A stretch of DNA of 64,000 nt from Synechococcus sp. PCC 7336 (GTDB taxonomy: Bacteria; Cyanobacteriota; Cyanobacteriia; Thermostichales; PCC-7336). The notes beneath the pieces are model-generated. The model made no database searches, had not been told where the DNA came from, and saw nothing but the letters and a program-made list of their open reading frames with translations. Of the stretch, positions 11,522-16,513 are shown in pieces; positions within the stretch are counted from its first letter, which is position 1; every line of letters begins with the position of its first letter. Where the stretch lies: contig NZ_CM001776.1 of assembly GCF_000332275.1 (NCBI RefSeq), forward strand, positions 2,855,737 through 2,919,736, in the 5' to 3' direction. A program made the position numbers and the translations under genes.

Positions 11522-12430
11522 ATGGTAGCTTCAGCATTGCTGAGGTGCGGGGTAAGCTCTAAAAAGTTTACAGATTGGGGTGGCGTGACAGAATCGCTTA
11601 GCCGGTGGAGGCGCCATTCTAGGCTGGCCCGTTACTGGCGCTACGCCAGACGCAATCCTGCTTGGATAGCGATGTTTGTGCTATCTCGCTTCCGCTCGGT
11701 TTCAAACTGGGTGGTGAGCGTCACCCGTCCCCCCACGCTACCCCTACTGCCAGAAGAAGCATCGCTATTCCCAGAGCTAGATGTGGATGCAGTTGTTGCA
11801 GAATTGCGGCAGGTGGGCTGTTCCGCTCAACTCCGCTTGCCCGCAGATATCTTGGGCGAGATGTTGAGCTTTGCCACTACAGAAGAGCCTCTACCCGTGA
11901 AGCCAAAGTGGTTGGTCCGTCCTGCAGTACGAGCCTTTTATCCTACATTTGGCGAGGAGTGCGGGGCCGCACGACGGCTCGCCAGCGATGCCAAAATCCA
12001 CAATATTGCGGCTCGATATTTAGAATCAGAGCCCATGCTCAAGTCTGCGCGCCTAGGCTGGTGTTTTGTGGGCGATCGCAAAACCTATCGCGAGCTGGCC
12101 CCAGCCCAAACGATCTTTCATTACGATCTGGCTGACTACCGCGTCCTCAAATTTTTCTTTTATCTCACCGATGTCGATGCTAACAGTGGACCGCACGTCT
12201 GCATTCGCAGCAGCCATACCCGCAAGCATTGGAAGCATCAGTTCGCACTATTCGCCAAACAGAGCGATCGCGAAATCTACGAGGCGTACGGTCGCGAAAA
12301 CTGGTGGGAGATCGTCGGCCCTGCTGGATTCGGGTTTGTGGAAGACGTGTATTGCTTCCATCGCGGCACCCCTCCAGTTAATTGTCCCCGTCTGATGGTG
12401 AAGCTCACCTTTACCCGGCATCAGTATTGA
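11522..12430 (+). CDS. Phytanoyl-CoA-dioxygenase-like (2-oxoglutarate/iron) protein
   Basis: A 302-aa protein whose C-terminal half looks like the PhyH family: the iron motif H-x-D is in TIFHYDLADYRVLKFFFYL, followed by a double-stranded helix segment (VDANSGPHVCIRSSHTRKHW), and the distal histidine is in VYCFHRGTPP, with a plausible 2-oxoglutarate-binding arginine in CPRLMVKL. The N-terminal 90 residues are basic and unassigned. Starts at 11522 or further inside are possible. The substrate is unknown. It lies 32 bp after lipB. Confidence 0.72.
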   Translation: MVASALLRCGVSSKKFTDWGGVTESLSRWRRHSRLARYWRYARRNPAWIAMFVLSRFRSVSNWVVSVTRPPTLPLLPEEASLFPELDVDAVVAELRQVGCSAQLRLPADILGEMLSFATTEEPLPVKPKWLVRPAVRAFYPTFGEECGAARRLASDAKIHNIAARYLESEPMLKSARLGWCFVGDRKTYRELAPAQTIFHYDLADYRVLKFFFYLTDVDANSGPHVCIRSSHTRKHWKHQFALFAKQSDREIYEAYGRENWWEIVGPAGFGFVEDVYCFHRGTPPVNCPRLMVKLTFTRHQY

Positions 12431-12654: not shown

Positions 12655-14832
12655 ATGATGGATAAGCGGCGATCGCGTCAGAGAACGCAACGAGACAAAC
12701 CGCCGAGGCAGGGATGGCGGTGGCTGTCGGCAGGGGTGGTGGCGATCGCCCTCCTGTTGCTGGGAACCCATGCGTGGGCCACTCCCACTCGCGAAGAGTT
12801 ACCCTCCCTATTTGGGCGGGATGGAATTCAATACACCGCTCGAGCGATTGAGTTCGAACGGGAGCCTGAAGATTACGGCGGCTTATACGCCCAAATTGAT
12901 GGCGAGATTGTGGCTTTCCCGCTGCAACAAACGGAAGTCACGGCGGATGTGGCTGGGAATATCGCGCGGGTTGAAGTGCGGCAAAGCTTTACCAATCCCT
13001 ACGACTATCCACTGGAGGCCATTTATCAATTCCCGCTGCCGGAGGATGCCGCCGTGGACGACATGGAGATCCAAATTGGGGATCTGGTTGTGCGGGGGGA
13101 GATAAAGGAGCGACAAGAGGCCCAGCAGATTTACGCAGAGGCTAAAGAGAGCGGGCGAACGGCAGCGCTGCTGGAGCAAGAACGACCTAATCTCTTCACC
13201 CAATCCCTCGCCAATATTATTCCTGGCGAGACGATTGATACCGTAATTCGCTACACCAACACCCTCAAATTTGAGGGGGGCGACTACGAGTTTGCCTTCC
13301 CGATGGTCGTCGGCCCCCGCTACATTCCCGAGGATGCCAGCGGAAATGTCGATTTCAATCGCGTTCCCGATGTCTCTAGAATTACCCCTCCCATGCTGCC
13401 GCCAGAGGTGCGCTCCGGCCACGACATCGGCGTCACCGTCACTATCGATGCTGGGGTTCCCATTCGCGATGTGCGATCGCCCTCCCACGCAATTGACACG
13501 GAAAACCAGAATGGGGCCGTCAGAGTTCAGCTTGCCGATCGCAATACGATCCCCAACAAAGATCTGATTTTGCGCTACCAAATTGCAGGCGAGAACACCC
13601 AAGCAACCGTGTTAGCGCAAGCGGACGATCGCGGCGGCCACTTCGCCTCTTACCTGATTCCGGCGATCGACTATCAACTGGGGGAAATTGTGCCCAAAGA
13701 TGTGGTCTTCCTGATCGACACCTCGGGCTCGCAATCCGGCCCGCCCATTCTGCAATCCAAAGCCTTAATGCGGCAATTTATCGATCGCCTCAACCCCGAC
13801 GACACCTTCAGCATCGTCAACTTTGCCAACGAGAGTCGGGCGCTCTCCCGCCAACCGCTCGACAATACGCCCCAAAATCGTCGTCGTGCTTTGGCCTACA
13901 TCAACGGCTTGCGGGCAGATGGCGGCACGGAATTAATGAATGGCATCGAGACCGTGCTGAACTTCCCACCCGCGCGGGACAGCCGCTTGCGCAGCATTGT
14001 CTTGCTCACCGATGGGCTGATTGGGGATGACGAACGGGTGATTGGCGCCGTGCGCGATCGCCTCCAGCGGGGCAATCGCATCTACACCTTTGGCGTGGGC
14101 TCCGCCACCAACCGCTTTTTACTGGAGCGACTGGCGGAAGTGGGGCGCGGCAAAGCCGAGATTCTGCCCCCCGCCGAACCGGCTGAAGCAGTGGCTGACA
14201 AATTTGTCAGCACCATCAACAACCCCGTTCTGACCAATATTGAGGTGAACTGGCTGGGCAGTGGCGATATACCTGAAATCTATCCGCAGCGCCCCTCCGA
14301 CCTGTTTGCCAAGCAGCCCTTAGTGCTGCACGGTCGCAAGCCCGACGGCAGCAGCGGCAGGATCGAGATCGTCGGCAATTTAGCCAGTGGCGAAACCTAT
14401 CGGCGGGAATTAAGGGTGAATTTTGAGTCGGGAACAGGCAATCCCGGCATCGCTCAATTGTGGGGACGGGCGCGGATTAAAGACCTGATGAACCAGATGT
14501 ATAACCGCGAAACGGATGCGGGCATTCAAGCGGTCACCCAAACCGCATTAGACTATCGCTTGCTATCGAAATACACCGCCTTTGTGGCCGTGACTGAAAC
14601 AATCCGCGTCGATCCCAGCCAGCCGTCCGTGCGCCAGCAGGTTCCCGTCGCAACCCCTGAAGGCATTCAACTCAGAGACAACCGCAACGCCCATCAACCC
14701 CAGTTTGTCTATTCATCGCCCGAACCTCTAGAAATTCTCGGCAATCTATTGGCGCTGCTGGTGTTAGTGGTGCTGCTTTGCAAGACCCAGATTGTTCGAA
14801 AGAGGAGCGAAATGTCGAGTTCGACTCATTAA
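12655..14832 (+). CDS. VIT and von Willebrand A domain protein with PEP-CTERM sorting tail
   Basis: A 725-aa secreted protein. It has an N-terminal membrane signal segment (about residues 24-42), a VIT domain (about 60-180, with VEVRQSFTNPYDYPLEAIYQFPLP-like sequence) and a VWA domain with the metal site DTSGSQS near residue 355 and a later TDGLIGDD. The C-terminus is SSPEPLEILG at 687-696, a short hydrophobic helix, then the basic KTQIVRKR: a PEP-CTERM-type exosortase recognition tail. The next two genes encode a cyanoexosortase and its accessory protein, so this is very likely the local substrate. A strong ribosome binding site (GGAGGAGAGAGG) precedes the ATG at 12655. Confidence 0.88.
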   Translation: MMDKRRSRQRTQRDKPPRQGWRWLSAGVVAIALLLLGTHAWATPTREELPSLFGRDGIQYTARAIEFEREPEDYGGLYAQIDGEIVAFPLQQTEVTADVAGNIARVEVRQSFTNPYDYPLEAIYQFPLPEDAAVDDMEIQIGDLVVRGEIKERQEAQQIYAEAKESGRTAALLEQERPNLFTQSLANIIPGETIDTVIRYTNTLKFEGGDYEFAFPMVVGPRYIPEDASGNVDFNRVPDVSRITPPMLPPEVRSGHDIGVTVTIDAGVPIRDVRSPSHAIDTENQNGAVRVQLADRNTIPNKDLILRYQIAGENTQATVLAQADDRGGHFASYLIPAIDYQLGEIVPKDVVFLIDTSGSQSGPPILQSKALMRQFIDRLNPDDTFSIVNFANESRALSRQPLDNTPQNRRRALAYINGLRADGGTELMNGIETVLNFPPARDSRLRSIVLLTDGLIGDDERVIGAVRDRLQRGNRIYTFGVGSATNRFLLERLAEVGRGKAEILPPAEPAEAVADKFVSTINNPVLTNIEVNWLGSGDIPEIYPQRPSDLFAKQPLVLHGRKPDGSSGRIEIVGNLASGETYRRELRVNFESGTGNPGIAQLWGRARIKDLMNQMYNRETDAGIQAVTQTALDYRLLSKYTAFVAVTETIRVDPSQPSVRQQVPVATPEGIQLRDNRNAHQPQFVYSSPEPLEILGNLLALLVLVVLLCKTQIVRKRSEMSSSTH

Positions 14833-14929
14833 AAAGGACGAGTCAATCAGGGGAAACAGTCTCTTTTACCTCCCTCTTTTCTCCCCCACTGAGGGTTATG
14901 ACTAATACCGCTATCGAAAGGAGTCAATT

Positions 14930-15799
14930 GTGTTTGAACTTTCCAACCGCGACATCTGGACTGCCAGAGTGCAATACTCGCGAGCTTCGAAAAACTGGCT
15001 GATAGCCATCTTTGTAGGACTTGTAGGCATCCATCTCATCTCGGTTTGGAGCAGCGATAACGTGAATTTGTGGAGTGCGAGCTGTCTATTTTGGGCGGCG
15101 ACGATCGCCTCCCTCTGGCGCTGCCGCCAAGCCTTGCGTTGCGAAAGTAGTCTTGCGGCTATCGTCACCAGTTTCCTACTCATCGCCTGGATACTCTATA
15201 AAAGCCTGCACCTCTTCGACGCCGATATTTTCTTGCGAGTTTCCCCCATCCTGTCGCTTTTGGGCTTCGGCCTACTTGCCTCGGGCTTTCAAGGATTGCG
15301 CCCTTATGCCAAAGCCTTTCAACTGTTGGGATTTTTGGCTTTCCCTTGGGAACTGCTTTACCTGCTCGATATCACCACCTCGACCGCCAAATTTTCGGCA
15401 GCAGTGTTGAACGCGATCGGTTTTGAAGTCCAGCGACAGGGGTTTTTAGTGGCGCTGCCCAATGGTGCCATTGAAGTCTTCAACGGCTGTTCGGGGGTGC
15501 AACTGATTGCCCAACTGATGGGATTTACCTGGCTCTATCTCTGCTGGGTTGCCCCCAAGCCGATTGTGCGAGGCATTGTGGCGATCGCCGCCGTGCTGTT
15601 GGGCTTTGCCATCAATGGCCTGCGGGTCACATTAATGGCGGTGCTGGCAAACGCAGCGGCATATGACTGGCTGGCTTACTGGCACTTGGGCGACGGTTCC
15701 CTCCTGTTCCCCCTTGCAGCAGCAGCCCTGTTCGGCCTCTTCCTCTGGTCTGTCCACAAACTGCTGGTCTGCCCACAGCTCTCTCGCGCCTGCGTTTGA
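14930..15799 (+). CDS. crtA: Cyanoexosortase A
   Basis: A 289-aa polytopic membrane transpeptidase-like protein. The exosortase catalytic triad is visible: Cys in EVFNGCSGVQLIAQ (about residue 187), Arg in INGLRVTLMA (about 232) and His in YWHLGDGSLLFPL (about 251). It is expected to cleave PEP-CTERM tails during export. GTG at 14930 is the start; it follows AAAGGAG by 7 bases. The gene sits between a PEP-CTERM-bearing VIT-VWA protein and the accessory protein, all on one strand. Exosortase A-type enzymes have several named subclasses, and the cyanobacterial one fits best. Confidence 0.9.
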   Translation: MFELSNRDIWTARVQYSRASKNWLIAIFVGLVGIHLISVWSSDNVNLWSASCLFWAATIASLWRCRQALRCESSLAAIVTSFLLIAWILYKSLHLFDADIFLRVSPILSLLGFGLLASGFQGLRPYAKAFQLLGFLAFPWELLYLLDITTSTAKFSAAVLNAIGFEVQRQGFLVALPNGAIEVFNGCSGVQLIAQLMGFTWLYLCWVAPKPIVRGIVAIAAVLLGFAINGLRVTLMAVLANAAAYDWLAYWHLGDGSLLFPLAAAALFGLFLWSVHKLLVCPQLSRACV

Positions 15800-15826
15800 G
15801 CAGAGAATTCTCGGAGAAATCGACCG

Positions 15827-16513
15827 ATGCCGAAATGGAACCCACTGCAAACCCCAGTCCTGGCAACCGTCTTGCTGGCGATCGCCGTCACGGCAATTCA
15901 AACCCTCAACCGCCCCCAACTCCAATCTGTTGCAGTTCCCTCCTATATCTATCCCGAAGTCGTCCCCCTGCCCGGTTGGCAAGAGATTCCCGCCCGCGCC
16001 GCCGAAACCCCTCCCACGCTGTTTCCCCCTCCCAGTCCCCACGCGCCCAGCGGCGAGGTAGTGGCCAGCACTCAGTATTTATACCGTCACGATACAACTA
16101 TCTTAACGATAGATACGAGATACCTCATCAATACAAATGGGCAGCTTAAGGACTATATCAGCGAGCTCTCAGGAACTCTCTGGTCTGCACTGCGAGAACG
16201 AGACAACGTCGGGCACTATGGACTTTTTACTGATGGAGACAGAGCTTACATCAGTGCCTGCCTCAATCCTCGCGGCGGCAGTACGGTCACGAGCGATCGA
16301 TTCAGGCAAAATCGTTACCTCTACGACTTCCGTCCCGCCCGCATCGCGGCCTGGGTTGTGGGTCGAGACACCATTCAAGACCGACGGTGTCTGTGGACGA
16401 CCCTCTCTGTGGCGATCGCTGATTATGCCTCTCTCTCCCAAGCCGAACGAGACCTCGAAACCGCCTGGTTCGATTGGTTTGCCTGGTGGACTGCGAATTT
16501 CCCCAAGACTTAG
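15827..16513 (+). CDS. Cyanoexosortase A system-associated protein
   Basis: A 228-aa protein with one N-terminal membrane helix (about residues 8-25) and a periplasmic domain, resembling the EpsI-like protein that regularly accompanies cyanoexosortase A. It contains the block LPGWQEIPA after the helix, as in that family, and a Cys-containing segment AYISACLNPRGGSTVTSDRF. It starts 27 bp after the exosortase gene. Its biochemical role is unknown. Confidence 0.8.
   Translation: MPKWNPLQTPVLATVLLAIAVTAIQTLNRPQLQSVAVPSYIYPEVVPLPGWQEIPARAAETPPTLFPPPSPHAPSGEVVASTQYLYRHDTTILTIDTRYLINTNGQLKDYISELSGTLWSALRERDNVGHYGLFTDGDRAYISACLNPRGGSTVTSDRFRQNRYLYDFRPARIAAWVVGRDTIQDRRCLWTTLSVAIADYASLSQAERDLETAWFDWFAWWTANFPKT

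Follow-up and report, generated by a model that had tools for sequence, protein, structure and literature searches.

Three consecutive genes of Synechococcus sp. PCC 7336, lying in a stretch of 64,000 nucleotides (contig NZ_CM001776.1, positions 2,855,737 to 2,919,736; this whole stretch is called the window below), encode a VIT-VWA protein with a PEP-type C-terminal sorting tail, a cyanoexosortase A (CrtA), and an accessory protein of the cyanoexosortase A system. Comparison with relatives makes it very likely that these genes form a one-enzyme, one-substrate sorting module, in which a CrtA of a dedicated subfamily would recognise a variant tail. The dedicated pairing of CrtA and VIT-VWA protein is well supported at the level of sequence, with its processing putative. 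Such a pair had been proposed in the first-pass annotation of this DNA. Co-occurrence and CrtA phylogeny bear the proposal out, but the window genome alone cannot show a dedicated pair, since it also holds a second CrtA and about eight canonical PEP-CTERM proteins. The locus comprises the following features.

12655-14832, + strand: VIT-VWA protein gene, 725 aa (PF08487, PF13768, TIGR03788)
12724-12780, + strand: N-terminal hydrophobic segment LSAGVVAIALLLLGTHAWA (hydropathy)
12922-13254, + strand: VIT domain, residues 90-200 (PF08487, 123.2 bits)
13699-14160, + strand: VWA domain, residues 349-502 (PF13768, 70.5 bits)
14716-14829, + strand: PEP-type sorting tail, with SPEPLEILGN, hydrophobic helix, basic RKR cluster and short extension (sequence; relatives' tail profile)
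14930-15799, + strand: CrtA gene, GTG start, 289 aa (TIGR03763, motifs)
15827-16513, + strand: cyanoexosortase A system-associated (accessory) protein gene, 228 aa (TIGR04153)

All three genes lie on the + strand, with gaps of 97 nt between the VIT-VWA and CrtA genes and 27 nt between the CrtA and accessory genes. The open reading frames (ORFs), their order and their coordinates had all been given correctly in the first-pass annotation, as had the position of CrtA and the accessory gene directly after the VIT-VWA gene and the exact text of the tail (SSPEPLEILG, helix, RKR). A scan for promoters and terminators between the three genes returned signals at chance level, and therefore no claim is made on their transcript.

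Co-inheritance of the variant tail and a CrtA clade

Orthologs of the VIT-VWA protein were searched for in 194 relatives and in 386 genomes across the phylum, and were found in 52 and 36 of them, respectively. The PEP tail is present in the window genome, five genomes of genus g70 (G114, G525, G527, G528, G529), G519, and three genomes of genus g97 (G356, G538, G540), and additionally in a Prochloraceae metagenome-assembled genome (L141) and, in a different form, in G367. Nearly all other orthologs examined end in a different C-terminal segment, which contains an "after-VIT" domain in the one scanned. In a VIT-VWA tree computed without the tail, the PEP-tailed cyanobacterial proteins form one clade with a Shimodaira–Hasegawa-like approximate likelihood ratio test (SH-aLRT) support of 100; the G519 row of this tree is a fragment labelled "no", its tail being in a second ORF.

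The enzyme follows the same distribution. The CrtAs of all 11 genomes with a VPEP-type tail form one exclusive clade in a 55-row tree (bootstrap 100, SH-aLRT 97), and the same exclusive clade is found in a 131-row tree (SH-aLRT 98); the second CrtA of the window genome and the other g70 CrtAs fall outside it. Within g70 and g97, a CrtA of the dedicated clade occurs in 8/8 substrate-positive and 0/6 substrate-negative genomes (Fisher p = 3.3e-4, ignoring relatedness). Gene order in relatives, which the first-pass annotation had suggested checking, is also kept: VIT-VWA, CrtA and accessory genes follow one another on the same strand in the window genome and five others (G114, G525, G527, G529, G519), the VIT-VWA/CrtA order is retained in G528, whose contig stops after CrtA, and all three genes lie within 9 kb in the Prochloraceae genome. 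Adjacency to a VIT-VWA gene as a general trait of CrtA was rejected; among the CrtA loci read, it is confined to the group with the VIT-linked tail.

In four genomes (G356, G538, G540, G519), no TIGR04155 protein scores over the cut-off, and nothing but the VIT-VWA protein convincingly matches the tail profile described below; the g97 genomes also carry CrtC, so that the statement of a sole substrate concerns CrtA only. The one-enzyme-one-target definition of PMC3237569 fails for the window genome overall and holds, within the reach of the models, in these four. The member in G367 has a different tail, APEPSFMLATLS, and an ordinary CrtA outside the dedicated clade, which would fit a matching of tail and enzyme to each other.

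The window genome, a single cyanobacterial contig of 5.07 Mb, gives grounds for a different explanation, namely that the window CrtA is a general exosortase, the VIT-VWA protein being one of several PEP-CTERM substrates and the adjacency incidental. A second CrtA with an accessory protein is located at C1:1886298 (range C1:1886265-1887038), scoring over the cut-off and sharing 38% identity with the window CrtA across 129 residues. The search for other PEP-CTERM proteins that had been advised earlier yielded eight candidates, seven of them over the cut-off, with readable canonical tails PEPLTILGS, PEPISIVGS, PEPTTVLGS and PEPTAVLGS, and paralogous sorting enzymes may share substrates. However, the window tail is unlike these canonical tails, the exclusive CrtA clade tracks the substrate, 7 genomes share the gene order (counting the G528 contig that ends after CrtA), and four genomes retain a dedicated-clade CrtA without any canonical PEP-CTERM protein over the cut-off. 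A general role for the window CrtA is thus considered unlikely, and the second CrtA is probably the general enzyme serving the roughly eight canonical proteins. A further strong canonical tail (33.5 bits) was observed at C1:3065969-3066046 in a frame that stays open for just 29 aa, possibly a broken gene or a frameshift.

Several results weigh against a dedicated module and must be set beside this evidence. The second CrtA could also process the window tail, VIT-VWA and CrtA genes are both present but unlinked in the three g97 genomes, and the G367 protein, PEP-tailed as it is, goes with an ordinary CrtA. Under a simpler model, the first 131-row CrtA tree left the clade in two separate halves, with backbone support near 0; these were united when the same rows were analysed with a site-mixture model. 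Some members have long branches, and the accessory proteins were not recovered as a single clade, although a single clade was not rejected (p-AU 0.51). In addition, no other tail of the group has diverged as far as the window tail, which is matched by neither TIGR04155 nor TIGR02595 at E up to 10.

The sorting tail and the proteins of the locus

The VIT-VWA protein ends in FVYSSPEPLEILGNLLALLVLVVLLCKTQIVRKRSEMSSSTH; its tail reads SSPEPLEILGNLLALLVLVVLLCKTQIVRKRSEMSSSTH. The tail has a PEP-CTERM-like architecture, i.e., a PEP motif, a transmembrane helix and a C-terminal basic cluster; LPXTG is absent, with SPEPLEILG in its place. Orthologs lacking the tail had been named in the first-pass annotation as the finding that would speak against it. 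The relatives do carry the tail, and in a clearer form than the window protein (VPEPxEIxG...), as seen in VPEPAEIAGSLVAIALLWWRFGRRR, VPEPGQIIGNIVALILLIFFFIRR, VPEPSHIIGNLIVLITLGFFFWKRR and VPEPGEILGSLAAVLLLLSRFGWKR; the G356 tail even passes TIGR02595 (18.4 bits, cut-off 16). An alignment of eight tails has invariant PEP, I and G, and the variant consensus reads S/V-PEP-x-E/Q/H-I-x-G-N/S.

A tail profile was built from the tails of nine relatives, with the window tail left out. The window tail reached 14.5 bits against it, the best domain score among all ORFs of the window (next 5.6), with E = 0.009 for a set of 10,000 sequences, or 1.8e-5 if the tail is taken by itself. These statistics are moderate on their own; a chance origin of the tail was rejected on the homology of the whole clade together with the conserved PEP motif. 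In twelve genomes tested, the VIT-VWA proteins were the sole strong match to the tail profile (E 1e-15 to 1e-21, against 1e-4 for the runner-up), most of the matched tails being themselves in the profile. That the tail is a mere membrane anchor, its PEP arisen by chance or decayed in the window lineage and the protein staying in the inner membrane, is highly improbable: serine replaces the I/V before PEP, the helix is without glycines and both family models miss it, but the invariant residues, the intact neighbouring exosortase with all expected motifs, and the first rank of the window tail by best domain argue against this.

The VWA domain has an intact DTSGS metal-site motif at residue 355 of the VIT-VWA protein. 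The best NCBIfam match of the protein is TIGR03788 (marine proteobacterial sortase target) at 487.3 bits, below the cut-off of 551.65. Residues 92-705 align with profile positions 2-622 of 629, and the PEP tail is thus placed where that family has its sortase tail. Comparison with solved structures showed resemblance to PARP4 and the inter-alpha-trypsin heavy chains. The N-terminal hydrophobic segment, which stands where relatives have the kinase and its transmembrane segment, is probably an export signal (signal peptide) but may be a remnant transmembrane segment. The window CrtA passes TIGR03763 (200.9 bits, cut-off 150) and carries the expected exosortase Cys/Arg/His motifs in a hydrophobic context, i.e., CSG (187), NGLR (229) and YWH (250); solved structures gave no match. 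The accessory protein passes TIGR04153 (173.3 bits, cut-off 100) and has a single N-terminal transmembrane segment by hydropathy. Upstream of the VIT-VWA gene, a 302-aa ORF at 11522-12430 of the window has no match in Pfam or NCBIfam.

Kinase fusions in relatives and a possible mechanism

A kinase query matched every PEP-tailed VIT-VWA protein except that of the window, i.e., those of the ten other VPEP-type genomes and of G367; it matched none of the untailed VIT-VWA proteins of the set. The following kinase-transmembrane-VIT-VWA-PEP fusion proteins are about 1000-1035 aa long.

L218:7134-10133: fusion protein
L141:11435-14512: fusion protein
L214:4628-7729: fusion protein
L216:4969-8043: fusion protein (G367)

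The N-terminal Ser/Thr kinase scored 136-151 bits in Pfam in the four scanned, three of which also have a 4-Cys prefix. The kinase motifs HRDIKPEN, DFG and APE are present in the three fusions checked, and a single transmembrane segment precedes VIT in those checked. Judged from this layout, the PEP-tailed fusions are receptor-like kinases with an exosortase tail. In G519 the kinase-VIT-VWA gene is split over three ORFs by frameshifts (L213:1165-4381), which are perhaps sequencing errors or else mark a pseudogene. Kinases near the CrtAs of G187 and G115 were rejected as related fusions, being unrelated and without VIT or PEP tail. The first-pass annotation had missed both the kinase fusion of the relatives and the earlier publication of a PEP-CTERM VIT-VWA protein (see below).

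No kinase remnant was found upstream of the VIT-VWA gene or elsewhere in the window, nor any kinase-like ORF. The window protein nests within the PEP-tailed clade (SH-aLRT 95), and its position inside a kinase-bearing clade points to kinase loss in the window lineage; the simplest reading is that the window copy lost an ancestral kinase. The enzyme-substrate pair would then have been ancestrally attached to a receptor-like Ser/Thr kinase, mostly with the 4-Cys prefix, and the window lineage would have kept the exported half only.

In the proposed mechanism, the N-terminal hydrophobic segment would export the VIT-VWA protein, and the C-terminal helix would hold it in the inner membrane with the basic cluster inside. 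The CrtA of the dedicated subfamily would recognise the variant tail and cut at or near PEP, presumably assisted by the accessory protein, and would either free the VIT-VWA domain or transfer it to a putative envelope acceptor. The VIT-VWA module may function in surface adhesion or assembly, and a role in polysaccharide retention akin to that of Nostoc CrtB is plausible by analogy. In the kinase fusions, CrtA would process the outer portion of the receptor-like kinase in the same way. A more tentative suggestion, for which the odds are rather against, is that the ancestral substrate was a receptor-type Ser/Thr kinase spanning the membrane, with an outer VIT-VWA part that the dedicated exosortase would process and that would become attached to the envelope or its polysaccharide; tethered at both ends, such a kinase could sense envelope attachment or tension.

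Related sorting systems and wider meaning

Tails of the sortase, rhombosortase or exosortase type on VIT-VWA proteins had already been published in 2011 (PMC3237569), the examples including GlyGly-CTERM, LPXTG with an adjacent dedicated sortase, and PEP-CTERM (Verrucomicrobium spinosum). The link between VIT-VWA proteins and sortase-like systems asserted in the first-pass annotation agrees with this report and with the TIGR03788 match. The closest parallel is the marine proteobacterial system of target TIGR03788 and sortase TIGR03784, which shares a homologous VIT-VWA protein (487 bits), a motif-helix-basic tail at the same C-terminal place, and an adjacent dedicated sorting enzyme whose target is the only one in its genome (PMC3237569). 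However, that system uses a sortase and LPXTG, whereas an exosortase and PEP are found here, with a score below the cut-off. The Verrucomicrobium spinosum protein (PMC3237569, Figure 3C) belongs to the same family, ends in a PEP-CTERM tail and has its cognate exosortase, but it comes from another phylum, its tail is recognised by TIGR02595, and the passage on it describes no kinase fusion or CrtA pairing. The XrtN system VIT domain protein (TIGR04477) and the MSEP-CTERM protein (TIGR04286) are likewise VIT-domain or related proteins, sharing the VIT region and named in NCBIfam as partners of exosortase-family enzymes; they differ in lacking a CrtA, and a cyanobacterial ortholog scores only marginally against them (9.1 and 13.1 bits vs. 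cut-offs of 250 and 150).

Among cyanobacteria, the cyanoexosortase B (CrtB) system of Nostoc punctiforme is also an exosortase with PEP-CTERM substrates; it is tied to polysaccharide retention, motility and biofilm, and CrtB is needed to hold surface polysaccharide (PMC12188702). It differs in having CrtB with many substrates, and CrtA, VIT and kinases are unmentioned in that paper. Within the literature collection searched, nothing relevant was found on PEP-CTERM combined with protein kinase. As far as the sources compared show, the cyanobacterial dedicated CrtA subfamily, the variant tail and the kinase fusion are new. PMC3237569 states that a protein with a tail of this kind invariably has a signal peptide, whereas the fusion forms start with the kinase; if a receptor kinase is truly a substrate, it would go against the stated rule of a signal peptide at the start of PEP-CTERM proteins.

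An exosortase typically has many substrates to handle, and its chemistry is therefore difficult to study. Where a single enzyme and a single substrate are inherited together and the variant tail can be recognised, they would provide a clean cyanobacterial test system, and the second CrtA in the same genome would be its built-in control. The fusions with a kinase hint at a possible connection between protein sorting and signalling. Finally, the pairing of VIT-VWA cargo with sortase, rhombosortase and exosortases across phyla indicates a function for which a fixed position at the surface is required.
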